Below are positions 3,012-48,233 of a DNA stretch of 64,000 bases, piece after piece. The stretch comes from Pseudofulvimonas gallinarii (GTDB lineage Bacteria > Pseudomonadota > Gammaproteobacteria > Xanthomonadales > UBA2363), in contig NZ_SMAF01000002.1 in assembly GCF_004343305.1 (NCBI RefSeq), forward strand, positions 204,137-268,136, written 5' to 3'. Under the pieces are notes generated by a model that had not been told where the DNA came from, made no database searches, and saw only the letters and a program-made list of their open reading frames with translations. Position numbers and translations under genes: made by a program. Positions within the stretch are counted from its first letter, which is position 1, and each line of letters begins with the position of its first letter.

Positions 3012-3202
3012 ACGGTGGGAGAAGCCGGTCCGGCCGGCTGCCGAAGGCGCAAACGCCCGTAATCGCTCAGGCCCGATACCACCGCAGCGGCAAACACTCT
3101 GGAGAGACCGACCGGCCTGGCCGGAACCGGCGCCGAAGGGGCACGAGGCAGGCGGACGCAGGTCCGGTCGCCTCCAAACTCTCAGGCAAAAGGACAGAGG
3201 GG
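3012..3202 (+). promoter_or_regulatory. Tandem glycine riboswitch upstream of gcvP
   Basis: Two glycine-aptamer-like units lie in series. The first (about 3012-3085) has GGTGGGAGAAGCC, GCCGAAGGCGCAA and CGCTCAGGC. The second (about 3094-3202) has CTCTGGAGAGACC, GCCGAAGGGGCA, CTCTCAGGCAAAAGGACAG and AGGG. These are the recognisable conserved core blocks of the glycine riboswitch family, joined by the short linker usual for the tandem form. It ends 92 bases before the gcvP start codon. In this family glycine binding usually turns on glycine-cleavage genes, so substrate-induced gcvP expression is expected; the on-switch direction is inferred. Confidence 0.93.
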
Positions 3203-3294
3203 CACGCGGGAGCCGGCGCAGCCATGCGTCATCCCGACAACACCCGCGCGCCTGCGTGCGCCGACGATGCCCCTCCACTTCCCGGAACGCCGCC

Positions 3295-6247: not shown

Positions 6248-6327
6248 TGCCATCCGGGTGGCGGTCACGGTATAGCCAATGTGAGCGAGCCCCTTGATCC
6301 GTGGGCGGTTTCCGGCGGCATCCCCAG

Positions 6328-6365
6328 CGTCATCCACACGCCTGTGCACAGAATCCGTGGATAAC
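6328..6365. repeat. Partial copy of the DnaA-box-like repeat
   Basis: CGTCATCCACACGCCTGTG followed by CACAGAATCCGTGGATAAC resembles the 3' half of the three full copies at 7653-8492. It has the same outer arms (GTCATCCAC and GTGGATAAC) but a different core, and no GAATACAAACTCGCC box. It lies between gcvP and the deacetylase gene. Confidence 0.6.
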
Positions 6366-6449: not shown

Positions 6450-7415
6450 ATGTCGAGAATCCTGCTGCTGCTTTCCCTGCTGGCCTGCTTCGCGGCGCAC
6501 GCCACCGAACCGGACCGGCGCATCGCCATCACCATCGACGACCTGCCCTGGCAGCGCATGGGCACCACGCCCGCCGGCGAGGTCGCCGGCCGGCACCGGC
6601 AGCTGATGGCGCTACTCAGGCAGGCCGGCGTACCGGCCACCGGGTTCGTCAACGAAGGCAAGCTGGAAGTCGACGGAGTCGTCCAGCCCGAGCGGCTCGC
6701 GATGCTGCGCGACTGGCTTGTTGCCGGTTTCGAACTGGGCAACCACACGCACGGCCACCTCGACCTGCATGCGGTCGGCCTCGATGCCTACCGGGACGAC
6801 ATCCTCAAAGGCGAGCGCGTGTTGCGTCCGCTGCTCGCCGGATTCGGCCAGGTGCCGCGCTGGTTCCGTCATCCCTACCTGCGCGCCGGGCGCACGCGCG
6901 AGGATCGCGCCGCGCTGGAAGCCTTTCTTTCTGGCCACGACTACCGCATCGCGCCGGTGACCGTGGACAACGGCGAATGGGTCTGGGCGTTCGCCTATGC
7001 CAACGTGCTCGACGAAGAACCCGATACGCCCGGGCGCGCGGCCACGCTCGAGCGCCTGCGTCGTGGCTACATCCCGTACATGCTCGACAAGGTCGACTAC
7101 TTCGAGAAGCAGTCGCAGGCGCTGCTGGGTTACGCCCTGCCGCAGGTCTGGCTGCTGCACGCCAACGAACTCAACGCCGTCGCCTACGCAGACCTCGTCT
7201 CCGGCGTACAGCGGCGCGGCTACCGCGTTGTGACGCTGGAAGAAGCGATGCGGGACCCGGCCTACGATCGCGGCGCCGAAGGCTATGACGGCCGCTACGG
7301 ACCCAGCTGGCTGCACCGCTGGGCGATGGGCGAAGGCAGGCGCGGCGACTTCTTCGCCGGCGAGCCGGTGGTACCGAAGTGGGTGCTCGAACTGGCGCGC
7401 GTGGAGTCGGAGTAG
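6450..7415 (+). CDS. Secreted polysaccharide deacetylase (NodB-type)
   Basis: A predicted metal-dependent carbohydrate esterase that would remove N- or O-acetyl groups from a cell-wall or extracellular polysaccharide. The chosen ATG gives a signal peptide (MSRILLLLSLLACFAAHA) and 321 residues; an in-frame ATG at 6420 is possible but puts ten residues ahead of it. NodB motifs are visible: TIDDLPW (motif 1 with the metal and base aspartates), GNHTHGHLDLH (metal-binding histidines) and FRHPYLRAG (motif 3). The C-terminal third, after the WLLHANELN block, is less conserved. No partner gene adjoins, so the substrate is unknown. Confidence 0.88.
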   Translation: MSRILLLLSLLACFAAHATEPDRRIAITIDDLPWQRMGTTPAGEVAGRHRQLMALLRQAGVPATGFVNEGKLEVDGVVQPERLAMLRDWLVAGFELGNHTHGHLDLHAVGLDAYRDDILKGERVLRPLLAGFGQVPRWFRHPYLRAGRTREDRAALEAFLSGHDYRIAPVTVDNGEWVWAFAYANVLDEEPDTPGRAATLERLRRGYIPYMLDKVDYFEKQSQALLGYALPQVWLLHANELNAVAYADLVSGVQRRGYRVVTLEEAMRDPAYDRGAEGYDGRYGPSWLHRWAMGEGRRGDFFAGEPVVPKWVLELARVESE

Positions 7416-7652
7416 CCGGCAACCTGCAGGATCCAGCGAACCGGCATTGCCGCCGCGTGCGCTGCCGGCCGGATTACCCGACCATTGCCGGTACGTCGGG
7501 TAACGACACGACGATGCGGCCCGCGGCGCCCGCTCAGCGATTCGAATGGGTGGAGGCGCCCGCAATCGTGCCAGTGCGCCCCGATCACTCGGCCACCGTG
7601 GCTGTCTACACCGGATCGTGAGCCCGCAGCGCACCCCGCGATGGCGCTACGG

Positions 7653-7758
7653 CGTGAATACAAACTCGCCAATCTGAAGCACGTCGCTGATGTGCTTCGC
7701 TTTTTCCTGCGCGCCCACAGAGTCATCCACAGCGTTGCGCACACGATCCGTGGAAAAC
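7653..7758 (-). repeat. Fixed-spacing DnaA-box-like repeat, copy 1
   Basis: The left box is GTGAATACAAACTCGCCAA and the right block is GTCATCCACAGCGTTGCG then CACACGATCCGTGGAAAAC. Exactly 51 bases lie between CGCC and GTCATCCAC, as in the other two copies. The variable middle of this copy contains a GAAGCAC/GTGCTTC hairpin followed by GCTTTTT. Its right arm is GTGGAAAAC rather than GTGGATAAC. Strand is arbitrary; the arms pair best, with a G-U wobble, on a minus-strand transcript. Confidence 0.8.
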
Positions 7759-7910
7759 ATCGGCACGGTCGTTCTCCGTCCGCGTGTACGCGCCTGGACA
7801 GTCGCGTCCACACAGGCCACCCGCCGCGAGATGCCCGGTGCCGGGCGCGGCGCGACACGCGGATGTCAAGCGTTTCCGCGCACCTCCGCGCACATTTAAG
7901 GGGATGGCCG

Positions 7911-8018
7911 CGGTTGAATACAAACTCGCCAAAGTGAGACACATCCCTGACGCGCATGGATTTTTCCGGCGCACGCACAGACTCGTCCACAGCGTTGCGC
8001 ACACGTTCCGTGGATAAC
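7911..8018 (-). repeat. Fixed-spacing DnaA-box-like repeat, copy 2
   Basis: The left box is TTGAATACAAACTCGCCAA and the right block is CTCGTCCACAGCGTTGCGC, ACACGTTCC and GTGGATAAC. The spacing between the boxes equals that of copies 1 and 3, while the middle roughly 30 bases differ. GTGGATAAC is the reverse complement of GTTATCCAC, one mismatch from the DnaA consensus TTATCCACA over its core. Confidence 0.8.
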
Positions 8019-8385
8019 AGGCGCGCGCGGGCCCCATGCAGGTGCAACCGGATTGAACGATCACGTCCACGCAAGGCATGCGCATCGACGGGGTGGCACC
8101 CTGCGCTTGACGACTGCGTCCACGTGCGTCGCCCGCTCCGGCATAAGGACGGCATGGAGCGGGAAGCGTGCGTCCATCCCACGCCACGCATTCACAACAC
8201 GCACAAGCGTCCACGTCGCACGGGCGCATCGACCAGATCGCAGCCTTGACGGACGATCGCGGCCGGGCCGGGATCCGGCTCAGTGGGGCAAGGACCGCCC
8301 CCCCGGCGGCACCCTCGCCGCGATCCTGGTCAATCCCTGCGCCGGAAATTCACCGCGCGCGCCCTGTGACGACTGCAGCGTCGAG

Positions 8386-8492
8386 GCGTGAATACAAACT
8401 CGCCAAACCGATGAACCGCGTTGACCGTACTGGATTTTCTGGCGACGCCCACAGCGTCATCCACAGCGTTGCGCACACGATCCGTGGATAAC
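8386..8492 (-). repeat. Fixed-spacing DnaA-box-like repeat, copy 3
   Basis: The left box is GTGAATACAAACTCGCCAA and the right block is GTCATCCACAGCGTTGCGC, ACACGATCC and GTGGATAAC. The right block is identical to copy 1 except at the last arm. The middle segment is unlike both other copies although its length is kept. Confidence 0.8.
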
Positions 8493-8761
8493 CTTGCGTG
8501 AGCGAAGGGGCACCGATGCCGCACCCGCACGGCATGGACCTGTCGACGCGCTCACGAGTTCGAAGGGGCGCACGCCGTAGTAGCGCGTCCTCGCAGCGGC
8601 GCTACCGTCACTACGCACGGCAGCGCCATGCCCTGCCGTCGCCCAGATGAAGCTGCGCAAACTCGCCCGTGACCAGACGCGGCAACGAACACACGCAGGA
8701 TGAAAGGCCGTGAAGCACGCAGCTCACGTTTCGCCCCGTCACGAAATAGCCCATGCCACCC

Positions 8762-10192
8762 TCAGGTGCCCGGCCGTGCGGTGGGCTTGGGCTCGGCGAT
8801 TTCCTGGCCCGGCTGGGCGCGGCCGGACATTTCGGCGCCGGCGTCGGGTGCCAGGCGGCGCAGCGAGAACACCGAGCCCAGCGAGATCAACGCGATGGTG
8901 GCGAAGGCCAGCGTGAAGTTGATGCTGTCCCCGACCGGCTGACCGGTGGCGATGCTGGCCAGCGACAGCGCATAGCCGCCGATGGTGACGCCGGTGGCCA
9001 GTGCGATCTGCTGGACCATGGCGGCAAGGCTGCTCGCCTGCGACATGCGCGCCTGGTCGATGTCGGCGTAGATGATCGCGTTGAGGCTGGTGAACTGCAG
9101 CGAGCGGAAGCAGCCGCCGATCAGCAGCACGCCGACCATCATCACGTAAGGCGTGTCGGCGCGGAACAGGCCCAGCGGCACCAGGAACAGCGAGGCGACG
9201 ACAGCGTTGAAAACCAGCACCCGGCGGAAACCGAAGCGCTTGAGGATCCACGCCGCGACGGTCTTCATGAACATGGCCCCGGCCGCACCGGCGAAGGTGA
9301 TCAGGCCCGATTCAAGCGGGTCGTAGCCGAAGCCGAGCTGCAGCATCAGCGGCAGCAGCAGCGGCGTCGCGCCGACGCCGATGCGGAACAGTGCGCCGCC
9401 GAGCACGCCGATGCGGTAGGTCGGCACGCGGAACAGCTCGAGGTTGATCAGCGGATGCGGATGCCGCTTCGCATGCAGGACGTACATCACGAGCAGGCTG
9501 ACGCCGACCACGCTGACGCCCAGCAGGAGCGCGGTGCCGGCCATCTGCCGCCCCAGCATGGACAGGCCGAACATCGTTGCCGCCAGGCCCATGCTCGACA
9601 GGAAGAAACCGACCCAGTCCAGCCGTCCGACCGGACCGTAAAGCTGCGGGATATGCCGCCACGCGAACCAGATGCCGAGCGCGCCGATCGGCAGGTTGAC
9701 CAGGAAGATGTAGCGCCAGTGGCTGTAGGTGGTGATGAAGCCACCGACGACCGGCCCGAGCATCGGCCCGAGCAGCGCCGGCACGGTCAGCCAGCTCAGT
9801 GCGCGCACCAGCTGCGACTTCTCGATACTGCGCAACAGGACCAGTCGGCCGACCGGCACCATCATCGCGCCGCCGATGCCCTGCATGAAGCGCGCGGTGA
9901 TCAGCCCGCCCAGCGTGTGGCTGGCGGCGCAGGCGATCGAGCCGCACATGAACACGGCGATCGCCGCCATGAAGGTGCGCTGCGAACCAAAGCGGTCGGA
10001 CACCCAGCCACTGATGGGAATGAACACCGCCAGCGCGAGCATGTAGGCAGTCAGCGCGAGCTTCAGCACCACCGCTTCCACGCCCAGGTCCGCCGCGATT
10101 TCCGGCAGCGAGGTGGAGATCGCCGTCGACTCCATGTTCTCGATGAACAGGGCGCTGGCAACGATCAGCGGCAGCAGGCGTTCGCGTCTCAC
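8762..10192 (-). CDS. MFS multidrug exporter, DHA2 (EmrB/QacA) type
   Basis: An inner-membrane drug:H+ antiporter of 476 residues. Hydrophobic segments run throughout in a pattern fitting 14 helices. Near the N-terminus ALFIENMESTAISTSLPEIA resembles the D/E-x-T-I-V-N-V-A-L-P motif of DHA2 transporters. GWVSDRFGSQRTF is the MFS motif A loop, and RFMQGIGGAMMVPVGR is the motif B/C region. It stands alone, with about 500 bases of apparently empty sequence upstream and no adaptor (EmrA-like) or regulator gene beside it. The substrate is unknown. Confidence 0.9.
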   Translation of the reverse strand: MRRERLLPLIVASALFIENMESTAISTSLPEIAADLGVEAVVLKLALTAYMLALAVFIPISGWVSDRFGSQRTFMAAIAVFMCGSIACAASHTLGGLITARFMQGIGGAMMVPVGRLVLLRSIEKSQLVRALSWLTVPALLGPMLGPVVGGFITTYSHWRYIFLVNLPIGALGIWFAWRHIPQLYGPVGRLDWVGFFLSSMGLAATMFGLSMLGRQMAGTALLLGVSVVGVSLLVMYVLHAKRHPHPLINLELFRVPTYRIGVLGGALFRIGVGATPLLLPLMLQLGFGYDPLESGLITFAGAAGAMFMKTVAAWILKRFGFRRVLVFNAVVASLFLVPLGLFRADTPYVMMVGVLLIGGCFRSLQFTSLNAIIYADIDQARMSQASSLAAMVQQIALATGVTIGGYALSLASIATGQPVGDSINFTLAFATIALISLGSVFSLRRLAPDAGAEMSGRAQPGQEIAEPKPTARPGT

Positions 10193-21868: not shown

Positions 21869-23185
21869 GCTTGTTGCGCCTCCTGTAGCAGAGGGGTGAC
21901 GCGGACGCGGCCGATGAGGAGGTCGTCCATGAGACCGAATTTGAGGTCACGAAGCTTCGCCGATTCCCTTGTCGCGTTCTGGATGCGGTTGTCGATCTCG
22001 TCCAACCGCTCGGCGATGAGGTTCTGCTCGGTATGCTCGGGCCTTGCTGTCAGCAGCCCGCGAATGGTTGGGAGGTTCAGACCAGCTTTCGCACCGGCAT
22101 CGTTCAGCTTGCTGATATAGGCTTGAGCGACGGGGCTGGCCAAATAGTGGCCTACGAAGCGCGGGTTGACGGCACCGATATTGGGCCGCACGAGGGCGAT
22201 ATGCTGATTGATATACGCCTCGCCCATGCCATCTGGAACGACTCCAACAATACCCAGATCGGCCGTGATCGAAATCAGGATATCGCCCGGTTCCAACCGC
22301 GTTCGTTGACCGTCTGCGTTGTGTGGCGGGCACACGTAGATGGTGGAGTCAAACCGAAAGTTGATGTGCTCGCGCGTAAGATTTCCGATGCGCACGAACA
22401 GCGCGCCGCTTTCGGCATAGAAGCGCGCCCAGTCACGAGAGCCGCTAGTGACAGTGGAGGACACCGCCTCCAATGTGGCGATATCCCACTCCTTCGGAAT
22501 CCACCCCAGCGGCGACGGCTTGTAGAGATTCGGCGCCTCGGATTGGGGCGGGCGCAGTTCGCCGTTGGCGTCGATGCCGCGCGTCAGCAGGTCGTGCAGC
22601 AGGCCCTGCTTGACGGCCTTGAGCTTGGCGATGATCGCTTCGGTTTCCTGGATGGCGGTGTCGAGGGTGTCGAGGATTTTCGAAATAGCCGCCTGTTCTT
22701 CCCTACGCTCCGGGAAGATCACCTTCATCTTCTCGACATCGGCAAGGTTAAGCCCCGGCTGCGCGGAGCCCTTCATGTACTTCTTCACCTCAGAGTGAAA
22801 TGCCTTCGAGCGGAAGAAGTGAAGGAAAAATCGTGAGTGGAGTTCCTCTTGGATTGCGATGCGCGCTGTGGTCTGCGTTAGGTTGGCACCGGACAGAATC
22901 TCCGGCACTTCTGCGACTAGGCCAACGTAGCCAACAATGGACAAAAGGATGTCGCCACCTCGAACCGAGGCTCTGTCGAAGCTTGCCGCAAGTCGAGGGG
23001 AAACATAGTAGAGGTCATCGACACGAACTTCGCCGCCGCTGTAATCCTGGCCGCGAATCATTGGGACGCCGAGCTCTGGGGTAAATCGAGGGCCTGGCTG
23101 GACGATTCCGTATGTAATCCTGCGATGAGGATTAACCACTTCCGCAAGTTTCTTTGACGTCCAGTTATCGGGAACCGAGCTGAAG

Positions 23186-23193
<8 letters not shown>
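21865..23193 (-). CDS. hsdS: Type I restriction enzyme, S (specificity) subunit
   Basis: The DNA-recognition subunit, 442 residues. Two target-recognition domains lie at about 5-150 and 225-370. Each is followed by a conserved helical spacer: [20 protein letters not shown]...[11 protein letters not shown] in the centre, and [19 protein letters not shown] at the C-terminus. Its start overlaps the hsdM stop by 8 bases. The recognition domains are visibly poorer in GC and less regular in codon use than hsdM and hsdR, as expected for the horizontally exchanged part of such loci. The target sequence cannot be predicted by eye. Confidence 0.95.
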
Positions 23194-25690
<2,497 letters not shown>

Positions 25691-41199: not shown

Positions 41200-42641
<1,442 letters not shown>

Positions 42642-42679
42642 GTCGTGGATTCTCAAGCTGGCGTTGGCTGGCTCGGGGT

Positions 42680-43153
42680 TCAGCCCAGGCGGATGTCGAT
42701 GCGTCCGCCATTGGCCGTGCGCAGCGCAGGTGCGGGTGGAGGTGCCGGCGGCAGGCCGCCGAGCATGTCGGCCAGCGTCATGTCGGCGAGCACGCGTTCG
42801 ATGGCGCGCGAGATGTGCTGCCAGGACACGCGGGCGGTGCAGTGCGATTCATGGCTGCATTCGCCAGCCGACGCACTGCAACGCGTCATGCCGATCGGGC
42901 CGTCGATGGCCTCGACGATCTGCGCCACGCTGATCTCCTGTGCCGGACGCGCCAGGCGGTAGCCGCCGGCGACGCCACGCTGCGACTGCACCAGCGCCGC
43001 CGAACCCAGCAGCTTCAGGACCTTGCTGACGGTCGGCAGCTCCAGTCGTGTCGCTTCCGCCAGCTCGGTGGCGGCCCGCAGCGCATCCGGCTTGCGCGCC
43101 ATTTCGGCCAGCAGGATGGTCGCGTAATCGGTGAGTTTGCTGACGCGAAGCAT
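42680..43153 (-). CDS. Rrf2 family regulator of the suf operon (IscR/SufR-like)
   Basis: A 157-residue Fe-S-sensing repressor or activator. The winged-helix N-terminus is [20 protein letters not shown]. The recognition helix lies in [20 protein letters not shown] and the wing in [11 protein letters not shown]. Three cysteines (92, 99, 105) in [15 protein letters not shown] are suitable cluster ligands. It lies at the head of the suf operon and its upstream region has a TACAAT stretch usable as a -10. A Pro/Arg-rich C-terminal tail is extra. Confidence 0.92.
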
Positions 43154-43330
43154 CGCGGCACTCCAAATGGGACCAGAATTGTACTGATTAGGCCGGCACC
43201 CCGCCAAGCCATGCAGGCACGGGCTTTGCCGGCTCCGTTCAGCGCCAGGCCAGCCGTTGCACGGCTTCATGGCCGCAGCAACACACAACACGACGTCCCT
43301 CAACCCCTCCCAGACGAAGGAGTCCTGCCC

Positions 43331-43537
43331 ATGTCCTCGAACACCTTTATCGGAATCGCCCTGCTGGTCGGCGGCGCCATCGCCCTGTATTTCGGCCTGA
43401 CCGCCACTGACAGCCTGAGTGAACGCGTTGTCGAAGGCGTCACCGGCCGCTACACCGACGGCACCATGTGGTATCTGATCGGCGGCGGCGTCGCCGCCGT
43501 CGGCGGCCTCGCCCTGCTGTTCATGGGCAAGCGCTGA
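43331..43537 (+). CDS. DUF3185 small membrane protein
   Basis: 68 residues with two hydrophobic helices (FIGIALLVGGAIALYFGLTA and YLIGGGVAAVGGLALLFMG) flanking TDSLSERVVEGVTGRYTDGT, the pattern of the DUF3185 family. AAGGAG precedes the ATG at good spacing. It is divergent from the suf regulator. The function is unknown. Confidence 0.85.
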   Translation: MSSNTFIGIALLVGGAIALYFGLTATDSLSERVVEGVTGRYTDGTMWYLIGGGVAAVGGLALLFMGKR

Positions 43538-43597
43538 CGCGCACACCCTGCGTCGTGCAGCGCACGTGTCGAATTCATGCCGCAGGATTCTGCCCCT

Positions 43598-43645
43598 GTA
43601 GGCGGGTAGCTTGCTGCCCGCTGCGGCCGCAAGGCCGCTGGCAAG
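43598..43645. repeat. REP-like palindromic repeat, copy 2
   Basis: GTAGGCGGGTAGCTTGCTGC CCGC is followed by a perfect second hairpin, GCGGCC-GCAA-GGCCGC, then TGGCAAGC. It matches 33-72. The GTAG head and imperfect palindrome are the layout of REP sequences mobilised by RAYT transposases; none is in the window. Confidence 0.6.
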
Positions 43646-43853
43646 CTCGCCGCACACCAGTATCGCTCGAGACCAACAACTGCGACATGACATCAGGTTT
43701 TTTTAGGGCCGATTAGGTGTCGTGAATGGTGGGGCAACTCAAGGGAGCACTTGACGCTAATACACAGTATTTACGTACACAAGATCATTTCAGGTTGATT
43801 CATGTGGAGAAGTGGGCTACGGTCGAACCACGCTCCTGCATGGAGTCATCGTC

Positions 43854-45623
43854 ATGAGCCGCCTCTTCTCGAAATTGCTGGCCGCATCGCTCACCATCTC
43901 CGTATTCGCCCCCCCCTTGCTCGCTCAGGCGTTGCCGCCTGAGCGTTTGGTCGTGCGCAAGGACGGTGAGGGCAACGTGCTCGATCCACGTATTGCAACC
44001 GAATTGCTCGAAGAGTTTGCTGGTCTGTCATCGCCACAACGGCTGATCATCCAAGTTTACACCGGGCCCGGCTACGATCCCTATGCCATGGGCGTAGACG
44101 ACGAGTTGGCGGAGCAGATCGGCACCCGTCATGCCGAAACCTTCCACCAGCTACGCGAACGGGTTCCCGAGGAACTTGCAAACAATTCGCTAACGATCAT
44201 CAAGGAGCTCTTACCCCTTCCGTTGGCAATTGTGGAAGCTGACGCCCAAGGGTTGACTTGGCTCCTCGCTGATGCAGGCATTCAAGTTCTCTATCAAGAA
44301 GTTTCCATGCGAGCCTTTTTGCAGGAGACCCTGCCGCAGATACAAGCCGGGACCGCACACAGTGGCGGCGCGACTGGCTCGGGGCACACTGTCGCCATAC
44401 TCGACAGCGGCGTACAACGAAGCCACCCGATGTTCAGCGGAAAAATCGTCGGAGAAGCCTGCTTTTCAACCAATAAGTTCAGCTACGCCGGCTGCCCGGC
44501 CGGACACAGCTGGGGATCGGTCAGTGCCGGATCTGGCGAAACGTGCACCGGCTCAGCCGCCTGCGACCACGGGACCCATGTGGCGGGCATTGCGATCGGC
44601 TCGCAGCAGACCGTTCCGCCATCTGGGCCGGTTCTTAAAGGCGTTGCCTATGCCGGTAACCTGATGACGGTAAGAACCGGGTCCTTGTCCGACAACTGTG
44701 GCTGGGATCCAGGGCCATGCTTGGGGTTTGACATAAGCGACACAGAAGCTGCGCTGGAGCACGTCTACTCAATGCGATCCACGCTGGACATTGCTGCTGT
44801 AAACATGAGTTATGGATGGTTTGCCTGGTTCCCAGGTTATTGTGATGTCGCATATACCGACTTGGCGCAGCTGGTAGACCTTCTCACCGGCGCGGGGGTC
44901 GCGGTTGTAGCGGCTTCCGGGAATTCAGCAATGGACGGACTTGCCAACATAATCGCCGCACCCGCATGCATCGAGAACACTCTGGCGGTTGGCGCAACCG
45001 ACAAAAGTAATAATCATGCGAACTACAGTAATGCGAGCAGCGCACTTGATATACTTGCGCCCGGCGGAATGGGCAACGCAAGCTTTCTTTGCACTGGCAC
45101 TCATCAATGTGTCCTGTCTGCCATTCCAGGATCCAGTTATGGTTATTCCTTCGGCACCTCAATGGCCGCACCGCACGTTGCCGGCGCATTTGCTGGACTC
45201 CGCAACCTTTGGCCGAAGACCAGCGTACCTGTGCATGTTATCGTCGATCACTTGAAGGATACCGGCTTGCCCATCAGCTTCACCCAAGGCGCAACCTCTT
45301 ACACGATCCCACTCATCCAGCTTGGCGACGCGGTGGCAAAACCTACCTCACCCACTACTGCCACAGTCGAACGGATGCTTTGCTATGGGTCCAACTGGGT
45401 GTACTGGTCAGGCAGTAGCGGGCCATTCAGCCACTATGAACTCCAAGGATCGTATTCATCGATCTACTCTTCCCCCTTCTCGCTGTACTCGGGAACCGCT
45501 GCATTTGCCCATATCGACGTAACCGGAACCACATGGGTGCGGGTGCGCGCATGCAACGGCCCAAGCTGCAGCAGCTGGACGAATGGCGATATATCCGCAA
45601 CGTATACTCCATGGTGCATCTGA
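43854..45623 (+). CDS. Secreted subtilisin-like serine protease (S8)
   Basis: A 589-residue exported protease. The ATG at 43854 has GGAG upstream and starts a signal peptide (MSRLFSKLLAASLTISVFAP...LAQA). A propeptide of about 130 residues precedes the S8 domain. The triad is Asp184 (AILDSGVQRSHP), His239 (CDHGTHVAGIAIG) and Ser436 (SFGTSMAAPHVAGAF), with the oxyanion Asn in AASGNSAMDG. The C-terminal 90 residues form a small beta domain (VYWSGSSGPFSHYELQGSYS). Codons are markedly richer in A/T than in neighbouring genes. Its stop overlaps the next start (TGATG), so the two are coupled. Confidence 0.93.
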   Translation: MSRLFSKLLAASLTISVFAPPLLAQALPPERLVVRKDGEGNVLDPRIATELLEEFAGLSSPQRLIIQVYTGPGYDPYAMGVDDELAEQIGTRHAETFHQLRERVPEELANNSLTIIKELLPLPLAIVEADAQGLTWLLADAGIQVLYQEVSMRAFLQETLPQIQAGTAHSGGATGSGHTVAILDSGVQRSHPMFSGKIVGEACFSTNKFSYAGCPAGHSWGSVSAGSGETCTGSAACDHGTHVAGIAIGSQQTVPPSGPVLKGVAYAGNLMTVRTGSLSDNCGWDPGPCLGFDISDTEAALEHVYSMRSTLDIAAVNMSYGWFAWFPGYCDVAYTDLAQLVDLLTGAGVAVVAASGNSAMDGLANIIAAPACIENTLAVGATDKSNNHANYSNASSALDILAPGGMGNASFLCTGTHQCVLSAIPGSSYGYSFGTSMAAPHVAGAFAGLRNLWPKTSVPVHVIVDHLKDTGLPISFTQGATSYTIPLIQLGDAVAKPTSPTTATVERMLCYGSNWVYWSGSSGPFSHYELQGSYSSIYSSPFSLYSGTAAFAHIDVTGTTWVRVRACNGPSCSSWTNGDISATYTPWCI

Positions 45624-46900
45624 TGAAATCTTCAACGTTCCCGCTACTGGTGCTGTTGGCAACTGCCAGTATGATTTGCAATGCCACACCCCCTCCTGTT
45701 CAGAGCACATCAAGCGAAGTGGAAATTCTGGCCGTTTGGCACGACACGATGCCAGACAACTCGCTGAATAATGACCGCATCGTTCTGGCGTTCCATAACG
45801 GGGAATTCGATGCATTCGACCGAGGCCAACCCTTACCGCCGTTCCTGCGCAACTGGATACCCTCCGACTTCCTCCCCGCAGATGCGTTCATCGAGAACTT
45901 TTTTCAGAACTACCCGGATGCCGAGCTGGGACTGATCTGGAATCCCAAGCCAAACGGTCTCGGACACATCATAGGAACTCCCCCGTGGAAAGCATTGGTG
46001 ACGCTGGATCCGGAAAAACACCGGTTTTTGTCCTATGTCTTTCGTCTCTATCCAGCGAACGATGCGTTCGTAGCGAACGAAGATCCCTTCGAGATCGAAC
46101 TGTTCGACAGCGAGGGAAAATTCAAAGGACCGCTCTATATCGACGTGTTCGGCAACCAGACTGTCGATGCGGGCCTGTGCCGGAACGATGAAGCCGTTCT
46201 GACCCGCTTGGACGTCGGTTTGTGGGATGAACAGACTTGCGATCCCGAAAACGGAGTTGTCATGCCGCATCCGGGCTTGAATGGCTCATGGCGGAATCCC
46301 GATGGCTCGCCGCAGCGTGTCCTAGGCGGCACCGGCCACTTCCATCATGACAATCCTGCCCTCAACCCGCACTATGATGCCCAGCGCGCCGACTTCTCCC
46401 GTCCCGGCTACAAGATCGGCCGCCTGCTGATCACACGCCGCTGGTCCAGTGGCTATACGTCCGGCTCGTATTACAGCCCCGAACGCGCCGGCGAAGGCTT
46501 CAACATCGAACTGGTGGAGCCGGAGCCGGGCCAGCCACACACACGCATCCTGGTCTACTGGTACACCTTCAAGCCCGATGGCAGCGGCGAGCAGGTCTGG
46601 CTGGCCGGCATGGGCGAGATGGATGCCGACGGCGGCATCGCCTCCGATGTGGAGATGTATGTCACCACCGGAGGCGAGTTCGCCTCGACCGGCAACCCCG
46701 ATCTGGTGGATCGCCAGCGCTGGGGCACGATCCGTATCGGCTTCGGCGATTGCGGCCATGGACGGGTGTTCTATCAGCCCGACGATCCCGACTGGCCCAG
46801 CGGCGACTACTTCATCAACCGCCTGAGTCCACAGATCGAGGGCTTGGGCTGGCCCTGCGCGCTTCCGGACGAGGCGCGCCTCATCCTGCCGGAGGATTGA
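45623..46900 (+). CDS. Secreted protein, spondin-like N-terminal region and repeated C-terminal beta domain (paralogue 1)
   Basis: 425 residues with a signal peptide (MKSSTFPLLVLLATASMICN). The start is taken at the TGATG overlap with the protease stop. Residues about 30-240 (VWHDTMPDNSLNNDRIVLAF, HRFLSYVFRLYPANDAFVAN, VMPHPGLNGSWRNPDGSPQR) resemble a bacterial spondin-type domain, but this is a weak call. Residues about 275-420 (GSYYSPERAGEGFNIELVEP, RILVYWYTFKPDGSGEQVWL) form a domain repeated in the next gene. The first two thirds are A/T-rich like the protease; from about 46380 the codon use becomes GC-rich. No enzyme motif is visible. Confidence 0.8.
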   Translation: MKSSTFPLLVLLATASMICNATPPPVQSTSSEVEILAVWHDTMPDNSLNNDRIVLAFHNGEFDAFDRGQPLPPFLRNWIPSDFLPADAFIENFFQNYPDAELGLIWNPKPNGLGHIIGTPPWKALVTLDPEKHRFLSYVFRLYPANDAFVANEDPFEIELFDSEGKFKGPLYIDVFGNQTVDAGLCRNDEAVLTRLDVGLWDEQTCDPENGVVMPHPGLNGSWRNPDGSPQRVLGGTGHFHHDNPALNPHYDAQRADFSRPGYKIGRLLITRRWSSGYTSGSYYSPERAGEGFNIELVEPEPGQPHTRILVYWYTFKPDGSGEQVWLAGMGEMDADGGIASDVEMYVTTGGEFASTGNPDLVDRQRWGTIRIGFGDCGHGRVFYQPDDPDWPSGDYFINRLSPQIEGLGWPCALPDEARLILPED

Positions 46901-46901
46901 G

Positions 46902-48233
46902 ATGAACGACCCCCATTCCCTGATCTTTCTTCGTTCGCGCAAGCGTGGCGCGGCTCTCGCCAGCATGGCTGGCGCGGCGCTGGCTTTGGCCGCCAGCACC
47001 TTTGCCACGCCCGCCCTGGCGCAATCGGCCGATGCACCGGTGAAGCTGCTGCTGCGCTGGTACGACACCATGCCGGACGATTCCCTGCACAACACGCGGG
47101 TGCAGGTCGCCTTCCATAACGGCCAATTCGATGTGTTCGATCTGGGCAAGCCGCTGCCGACCGTGCTCGCCGAGTGGGCCGGACGCAATTTCACGCCAGT
47201 GCCGGAGTTCCATGCGGCGTTCCTGGCGGCCTGGCCGGACGCGAAGATCAGCCAGATTTTGAATCCGAAGCCGCCGCTGGCTGCCACGATCCCTTCACCG
47301 GGCTTCAACCGCCCGATCCCCTGGCAGACGGTTGTGACGGTCAACCCCGCGCAACATCGTTTCCTGACGTTTTTTTCGTTGCTGCACCCGGCCAACGACG
47401 CCATGGTCGCCAACGAGGATCCGTACCAGATCGAGTTGTTCAACAGCCAGGGCAGGTTCCGCGGCCCCTTGCTGCTGAACATCCACGGCAACCAGGTCGT
47501 CGACTTGGGCCTGTGCGTGAACAACGAGGCACAACTGGCGAACCTGGATGTAGCCGAATTCACCGGGCAGGCCTGCAGCGCCGAGGACGGGACGGTGACC
47601 TGGCATCCGGGCCTGAACGGCTCGCACCGCAATCCGGACGGCCAGCCGCAGCGCGTGCTGGGTGGCAGCACCTCGTATGTGCCGTCCGGAAGCACGGGAC
47701 ATTCGTTCTACGACCCCGTCAACGCCGATTTTTCCCGGCCCGGCTATCGCATCGGGCAGTTGCAGATCAGCCGCTGGGTGGCACCGGTCAGCCTCACCGG
47801 CTCGTGGTACAGCCCGGAGCGCGCCGGCGAGGGATTCAATATCGAACTCGTCGAGCCGGCGGCGGACAGCCAGAACCCGCGCATCCTGGTGTACTGGTAC
47901 ACCTTCACTCCCGACGGCAGCGGCGAGCAGGTATGGCTGGCCGGCATGGCCGATATGGACGACGAGGAGGCCTTCGCCGATGTGGAGATGTACCTGACCA
48001 CCGGCGGCGAATTCGCCTCGACCGACAACCCGGCTCTGGTGACCCGCGAACGTTGGGGCAGCCTGCGCGTCGCCCTGGACAATTGCCAGACCGGACAGGT
48101 CACCTGGCAGGCCGACGACCCGGACTGGACCGATGGAAACTACATCATCCACCGTCTCAGCCCGCCGCTGGAAGGTCTGGGCTGGACCTGCGACAGCCGC
48201 GAACAGCGACGGCTGATCCTGCCGGAAGAGTGA
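46902..48233 (+). CDS. Secreted protein, paralogue 2 of the preceding gene
   Basis: 443 residues, start one base after the previous stop. A signal peptide with a long n-region (RSRKRGAALASMAGAALALA) is followed by the same two domains: WYDTMPDDSLHNTRVQVAFH, FFSLLHPANDAMVANEDPYQ, and C-terminal GSWYSPERAGEGFNIELVEP ending RRLILPEE, as the paralogue ends ARLILPED. It is GC-rich throughout. The tandem pair behind a protease suggests a shared extracellular role (substrate, inhibitor or binding partner), which is inference. Confidence 0.82.
   Translation: MNDPHSLIFLRSRKRGAALASMAGAALALAASTFATPALAQSADAPVKLLLRWYDTMPDDSLHNTRVQVAFHNGQFDVFDLGKPLPTVLAEWAGRNFTPVPEFHAAFLAAWPDAKISQILNPKPPLAATIPSPGFNRPIPWQTVVTVNPAQHRFLTFFSLLHPANDAMVANEDPYQIELFNSQGRFRGPLLLNIHGNQVVDLGLCVNNEAQLANLDVAEFTGQACSAEDGTVTWHPGLNGSHRNPDGQPQRVLGGSTSYVPSGSTGHSFYDPVNADFSRPGYRIGQLQISRWVAPVSLTGSWYSPERAGEGFNIELVEPAADSQNPRILVYWYTFTPDGSGEQVWLAGMADMDDEEAFADVEMYLTTGGEFASTDNPALVTRERWGSLRVALDNCQTGQVTWQADDPDWTDGNYIIHRLSPPLEGLGWTCDSREQRRLILPEE

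Follow-up and report, generated by a model that had tools for sequence, protein, structure and literature searches.

DnaA is the protein that starts the copying of the chromosome, and the DARS of E. coli are sites that recharge DnaA. (Another gene that appears below, priA, is the gene for replication restart.) In E. coli K-12, DARS1 and DARS2 each have three 9-mer boxes in the register 9-5-9-3-9; DARS1 departs from the DnaA-box consensus at 3 positions and DARS2 at 5.

The statements from the literature that we use here come from excerpts of the sources. DARS sites set the timing of chromosome copying. What is known of them comes from E. coli, and similar sites are reported from related species. 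(An excerpt of a review states, at second hand, that many species of proteobacteria have conserved DARS-like sequences.) Boxes II and III of DARS1 and DARS2 are the double boxes given for DnaA ChIP peaks in the part of PMC11317965 that we cite, and box II is described as essential in E. coli DARS (excerpt of a review). For DARS1, full activity requires a 42-bp flank and no other protein (PMC4585315, in part). DARS2 requires IHF and Fis, and its IHF sites lie between the core and the Fis sites, according to the excerpts. Another E. coli site, datA, requires an IHF site, and DnaA-box clusters in other bacteria restrain initiation (both from part of PMC4585315, section 24).

We analyzed a stretch of 64,000 nucleotides ("the window"), in which a first-pass annotation had described a three-copy repeat with an invariant left box, a fixed distance of 51 bases from there to the right arm, and an almost invariant right block. 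The three copies are real: a 105-nt unit occurs at 7655-7759 (c1), 7915-8019 (c2), and 8389-8493 (c3), and c2 and c3 are 83% and 76% identical to c1. The 15-nt left box, GGCGAGTTTGTATTC, is exact in all three copies (7656-7670, 7916-7930, and 8390-8404, on the minus strand), and the distance of 51 bases holds in each of them. With up to 2 mismatches allowed, the left box is expected 0.05 times in a shuffled window, and we observed it 3 times, always exact. Across the whole genome, five places match it with up to 2 mismatches, and the exact matches are those in c1-c3. The right block, described as almost invariant, is invariant at 32 of 35 positions; c1 departs with GTGGAAAAC and c2 with CTCGTCCAC. 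The left box is invariant at 17 of 17 positions and the spacer at 21 of 50. Conserved blocks and changing spacer differ with p = 6e-9 (Fisher's test), with the caveats that the unit was picked out for its conserved ends and that gene conversion is possible.

Searching the whole genome with the unit (BLAST, E ≤ 10) gave four places in the window and nine pieces of 14-26 nt. The fourth place is a diverged copy that the first-pass annotation overlooked. This copy, c4, lies 1.3 kb upstream of the other three, at 6309-6365 according to BLAST or 6262-6364 according to a model of the element (see below). The similarity does not clearly extend into the flanks. Five of six flank comparisons score at the level of shuffled sequences, and for the sixth (downstream of c1 versus c3), 16 of 200 shuffles score equally high.

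The right block can be read as a cluster of DnaA boxes. On the minus strand it is TTATCCACg-N5-TGTGcgcAA-N3-TGTGGATGA, which is one 9-mer and two inverted 9-mers of the DnaA-box type. All four copies have the register 9-5-9-3-9, with box I followed by the inverted boxes II and III. The first-pass annotation was correct that the arms resemble DnaA boxes, and their place can be given more exactly: the arms correspond to boxes I and III in a cluster of three that has the register of the DARS core. In c1 (7723-7757), box I is TTTTCCACG (7749-7757), box II is TTGCGCACA (7735-7743), and box III is TCATCCACA (7723-7731). In c2 (7983-8017), these are TTATCCACG (8009-8017), TTGCGCACA (7995-8003), and TCGTCCACA (7983-7991). 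The boxes of c3 (8457-8491) are TTATCCACG (8483-8491), TTGCGCACA (8469-8477), and TCATCCACA (8457-8465), and those of c4 (6330-6364) are TTATCCACG (6356-6364), CTGTGCACA (6342-6350), and TCATCCACA (6330-6338). All of these clusters are on the minus strand.

We compared the clusters to the pattern TTATCCACA-N5-TGTGGATAA-N3-TGTGGATRA (27 positions). c3 and c4 have 4 mismatches, and c1 and c2 have 5. One further, overlapping triple-box site in the window has 9 mismatches, and ten Markov-1 control windows contained one site at 9 mismatches and none at 8 or fewer. No exact TTWTNCACA box occurs within the window. In c1-c4, box I is 1 base off this consensus, box II is 2 off, and box III is 1-2 off. 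The window has 18 near-boxes (1 mismatch to TTWTNCACA), and 8 of them are in the 2.2 kb starting at 6301. A caveat is that the exact triple-box pattern also matched 13 times in viral contigs, which we judged to be unrelated from their surroundings. As these viral matches show, an exact triple box also occurs outside DARS sites.

The copies lie beside ordinary genes. A polysaccharide deacetylase gene (6450-7415, plus strand; its start codon is uncertain) lies between c4 and c1, with c4 upstream of it. c1-c3 lie between the 3' ends of this gene and an MFS transporter gene (8762-10192, minus strand). One of our models of the element (R3, described below) had no match at E ≤ 1 in 66 deacetylase loci from other genomes (806 kb), so the deacetylase gene does not regularly come with the cluster. 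In the region between the two genes (7416-8761), the plus strand has GTCCAC five times and the minus strand lacks it, as compared to 24 and 18 times in the whole window. The run of GTCCAC spans 7806-8209 (plus strand), with one of them inside c2, and these are perhaps more worn boxes. A GTAG...CTAC palindrome at 8577-8624 resembles a REP/SMAG-type repeat. Elsewhere in the window, GC content falls to about 0.60 at 42000-48000, as compared to 0.667 window-wide. This stretch contains an ORF that looks like a subtilisin-type protease (43812-45623) and adjacent ORFs for two similar proteins of about 450 amino acids each (45533-46900 and 46902-48233).

We looked for relatives of the element in other genomes. 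Our first pattern, GTTATCCAC...GTGGATRAC, matched in 1 of 299 genomes. With a looser pattern, 19 of 121 genomes from the source organism's order showed the layout, and the best matches of this pattern lie upstream of priA. We obtained the priA locus for 24 of the 25 genomes searched. In 11 of these 24 loci, including the one from the source genome, a triple box with at most 3 mismatches is just upstream of priA. (Of the remaining loci, L294 has a weak site with 6 mismatches, and 12 have none within 8.) The elements at L227, L232, L234 (as L268), L235, L236, L237, and L238 are also upstream of priA, as identified with Pfam, and other elements adjoin a sigma-factor gene (L240) and an obg gene (L242).

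A model built from 25 elements (c1-c4 included) had matches at E ≤ 0.01 in 129 of 131 genomes of the order, which is an upper bound for true elements because short or one-sided matches were counted. Its six matches in the source genome are c1-c4 and the priA leader on both strands; this genome appears to hold five elements, one at priA along with c1-c4. Four genomes from another family (f11: G029, G058, G065, and G072) have tandem pairs of elements that are 317-366 bp apart. (Examples are L246 and L240, G065:C1:11457/11817, and G072:C412:2660/2977.) Local multiplication is not unique to this window.

We then examined the flank beyond box III. The 25 related elements were chosen by the triple box alone, and the flank was tested apart. 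These elements are kin, with several from one genus, so shuffled flanks overstate their independence; that said, the Fis consensus GNNYANNNNNTRNNC is found at +49 to +53 after box III in 14 of 25 elements exactly and in 20 of 25 with at most 1 mismatch (0.11 and 1.6 in shuffled flanks), and the IHF consensus is found at +70 to +110 in 10 of 25 exactly and in 20 of 25 with at most 1 mismatch (0.05 and 0.89 in shuffles). Among the matches listed, the IHF-consensus site is at +85-87. The window copies share the nearer site. A Fis-consensus-like box is at +52 after box III in all four: c4 has an exact match (GGCTATACCGTGACC, 6263-6277, minus strand), and c1-c3 have one mismatch, in what is the left box of the first-pass annotation. 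By its likeness to the consensus this is a candidate Fis site, and it could serve another dimeric protein. A reading of the left box as a -10 promoter element was set aside. None of c1-c4 has an IHF site within 1 mismatch at +70 to +110, and we found no exact IHF consensus in the 185 nt that precede the boxes, between them, or in the 220 nt that follow.

Two unusual loci are included in the counts of 25 but did not go into the models R2 and R3. L294, where neither a Fis-like nor an IHF-like box is present within 1 mismatch, is probably a false element. At L233 (G022:C11:73732), the triple box is next to a tRNA gene and has the same box II as c1-c3 (TGTGCGCAA); it lacks the +52 box and an IHF-like box.

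For an independent comparison, we used two models built from 15 priA leaders, all with PriA confirmed by Pfam and with the window copies left out. R2 covers the core. On the window, its matches to c4, c3, and c2 are weak (13.5, 13.2, and 11.8 bits; E = 0.006-0.02), and its match to c1 is out of register. On E. coli, R2 scores DARS1 at 24.5 bits and misses the DARS2 core. R3 covers the same 15 leaders plus the flank; they include the source genome's own priA leader and two from the same genus. R3 scores c4 at 30.0 bits (E = 3e-8), c2 at 24.7 (1.5e-6), c3 at 22.6 (7e-6), and c1, weakly, at 15.3 (1.3e-3). Because R3 scores above R2, the flank adds to the match. The R3 matches of c1-c4 each stop at the start of the model's IHF part, around position 102-104. 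R3 also matches E. coli DARS1 over its full length (33.2 bits) and DARS2 weakly (18.0 bits). In 14 pieces (280 kb) of the contig that includes the window, R3 finds c1-c4 and nothing else.

We considered several other explanations for the repeat. The first-pass annotation suggested a small coding unit on the minus strand (STDRVRNAVDD...GEFVF), and this frame is open over 35 codons in all three copies. But three pairwise comparisons in this frame gave 5 synonymous and 43 non-synonymous codon differences, and the differences among c1-c3 are spread over the codon positions as 20/23/29, with no third-position excess. Also, the three 35-residue peptides match no Pfam family at E ≤ 10. We rejected the coding reading on the codon differences and give it almost no credence. 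The statement that no known repeat family or gene explains the repeat is half right: no gene fits, and a search of 7400-8800 against Rfam (E ≤ 1) gave no family, but DARS, which are sites of a known kind, do fit. (In seven related loci, Rfam gave nothing except a tRNA. In the whole window, it gave only a glycine riboswitch aptamer, RF00504, with 50 bits, at 3089-3207 on the plus strand; this is far upstream of the repeat and is upstream of a glycine dehydrogenase gene.)

A mobile or dispersed repeat was also rejected, as the genome has no further full copy (BLAST, E ≤ 10). Among 398 genomes of the order, with the two best candidates scored for each, there was no full-length relative of the unit; 19 of the 398 had some match at E ≤ 0.01, nearly all of them pieces of 22-35 nt. 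Plasmids gave 27 records that match about 4-6% of the query, and the best 20 of the 27 are unconvincing. In viral contigs, the left box alone matches at least 120 stretches, which means little for so short a box, and a 22-nt piece of the right block has no match. In the tests that we ran, nothing identified the copies as fragments of a transposon or as a decayed gene family. Finally, the origin of replication was rejected as a reading, using GC skew and the position of dnaA in a relative whose genome is one contig (G099). There, dnaA is at position 142, and the priA element is at 3.892 of 4.299 Mb, or about 407 kb from dnaA; GC skew (20 samples) switches at about 2.1-2.2 Mb and close to the ends of the contig. 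Within the window, the skew goes from negative to positive near 22-24 kb (22000-24000) and not at 8 kb. In the source genome, dnaA is on contig C27 and the window is on contig C2.

Overall, we propose that the four copies form a group of DARS1-like elements that would turn ADP-DnaA into ATP-DnaA, and we put the probability of this at roughly 0.6, based on sequence and on analogy to E. coli. What we observed is that the copies keep one register and one spacing, that their parts are unevenly conserved, that they resemble priA leaders as well as DARS1 and DARS2 of E. coli, and that they lack a coding signal. DnaA would bind the triple boxes of c1-c4, ADP would be released from ADP-DnaA at the elements by nucleotide exchange, and the elements would be active in the cell, with a role in the timing of initiation. 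By anatomy the elements are DARS-like and nearest to DARS1; they are putative and short of a proven DARS. Two things argue against DARS function: every copy has a box II that is 2 bases off the consensus, and none has the IHF site. Also counting against the proposal are the lack of any exact DnaA box in the window, the weak scores with the core model R2, the lack of a Fis-like box at +48 to +56 in DARS1 and DARS2, and the 66 deacetylase loci without the cluster. Because of the deviations in box II, these sites are possibly weakened. In favor of function, the blocks hardly differ among c1-c3, whereas the spacer, at a constant length, varies at 29 of 50 positions.

The same facts bear on the possibility that the copies are decaying relics, that is, DARS-like leader copies that spread locally and are losing function. 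The degenerate box II and the missing IHF site would both be expected of relics, and the cluster's absence from the 66 deacetylase loci of other genomes also fits, but decay would not leave the blocks almost invariant beside a spacer that changed so much and kept its length. (This counter-evidence is limited by the small number of copies and by possible gene conversion.) We consider relics to be unlikely. It also seems improbable that the cluster is a sink for DnaA, like datA in effect, which would lower the pool of free DnaA without any nucleotide exchange. The concentration of near-boxes in 2.2 kb (8 of 18) suggests a sink, as do the clusters that restrain initiation in other bacteria (in the excerpt of section 24 of PMC4585315). 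However, the head-to-head register of boxes I and II at a fixed spacing is that of DARS, as far as the excerpts describe it, and not that of any cluster; and the IHF site that datA requires, by the same excerpt, has no exact counterpart from -185 to +220 nt around the boxes. A third possibility is that the elements are operators for DnaA-controlled promoters, as at priA, with c4 acting on the deacetylase gene and c1-c3 on unseen small transcripts. The element is just upstream of priA in 11 of 24 loci, and c4 is oriented to the start of the deacetylase gene just as those elements are to priA, but c1-c3 lie between two convergent gene ends and match no Rfam family, so we view operators as quite unlikely.

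If the four copies are DARS1-like elements, then a DnaA-recharging site may have been multiplied locally: four elements without IHF sites, in 2.2 kb and sharing the +52 box, would add to a canonical element at priA, and the supply of ATP-DnaA would be set by the local copy number. We offer this tentatively, and it is doubtful as it stands. If it is true, the tandem pairs in G029, G058, G065, and G072 are on the same theme. More broadly, if the DARS reading is correct, then priA is preceded across the order by DARS-type elements whose second and third sites are fixed in place, and one genome adds a cluster of four to the one at priA. This would tie priA, and with it replication restart, to how active DnaA is supplied. 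It would also provide natural variants (with or without the IHF site, with a weak box II, in one or several copies) with which to probe what DARS require. Our literature search, which covered a minority of the subscription journals, turned up no description of DARS next to priA or in any member of this order.

The element type is already known, and what is unusual is to have four of them clustered beside ordinary genes. Like datA, the window copies are a non-coding cluster of DnaA boxes, probably also away from the origin, but the arrangement of the boxes differs, and datA requires an IHF site (according to the excerpt). Compared to DARS2 (upstream of mutH), the register is the same. DARS2 has an IHF-like site (1 mismatch) at +74, comparable to the relatives' site at +85-87, while the window copies lack an IHF-like site and the Fis-like box is the nearer one. 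Neither DARS1 nor DARS2 has a Fis-like box at +48 to +56 (2 mismatches at best), unlike the window copies. The priA-leader elements of the order, including the source genome's own, have the same core, +52 box, and spacing as the window copies, but their boxes I and II are perfect, most have an IHF-consensus site, and they adjoin priA; the window copies differ in each of these respects. DARS1 (between bioD and uvrB) differs in that its box II is perfect, as compared to 2 bases off in the window, and in that it is a single copy. Otherwise, DARS1 is much like the window copies: it has the register 9-5-9-3-9, its box I is off the consensus at the last base (TTATCCACT in DARS1 and TTATCCACG in the window), it too has no IHF site within 1 mismatch at +70 to +110, it has TTGG at +49 where the window copies have it at +50, and it is matched along its full length by the model of priA leaders.
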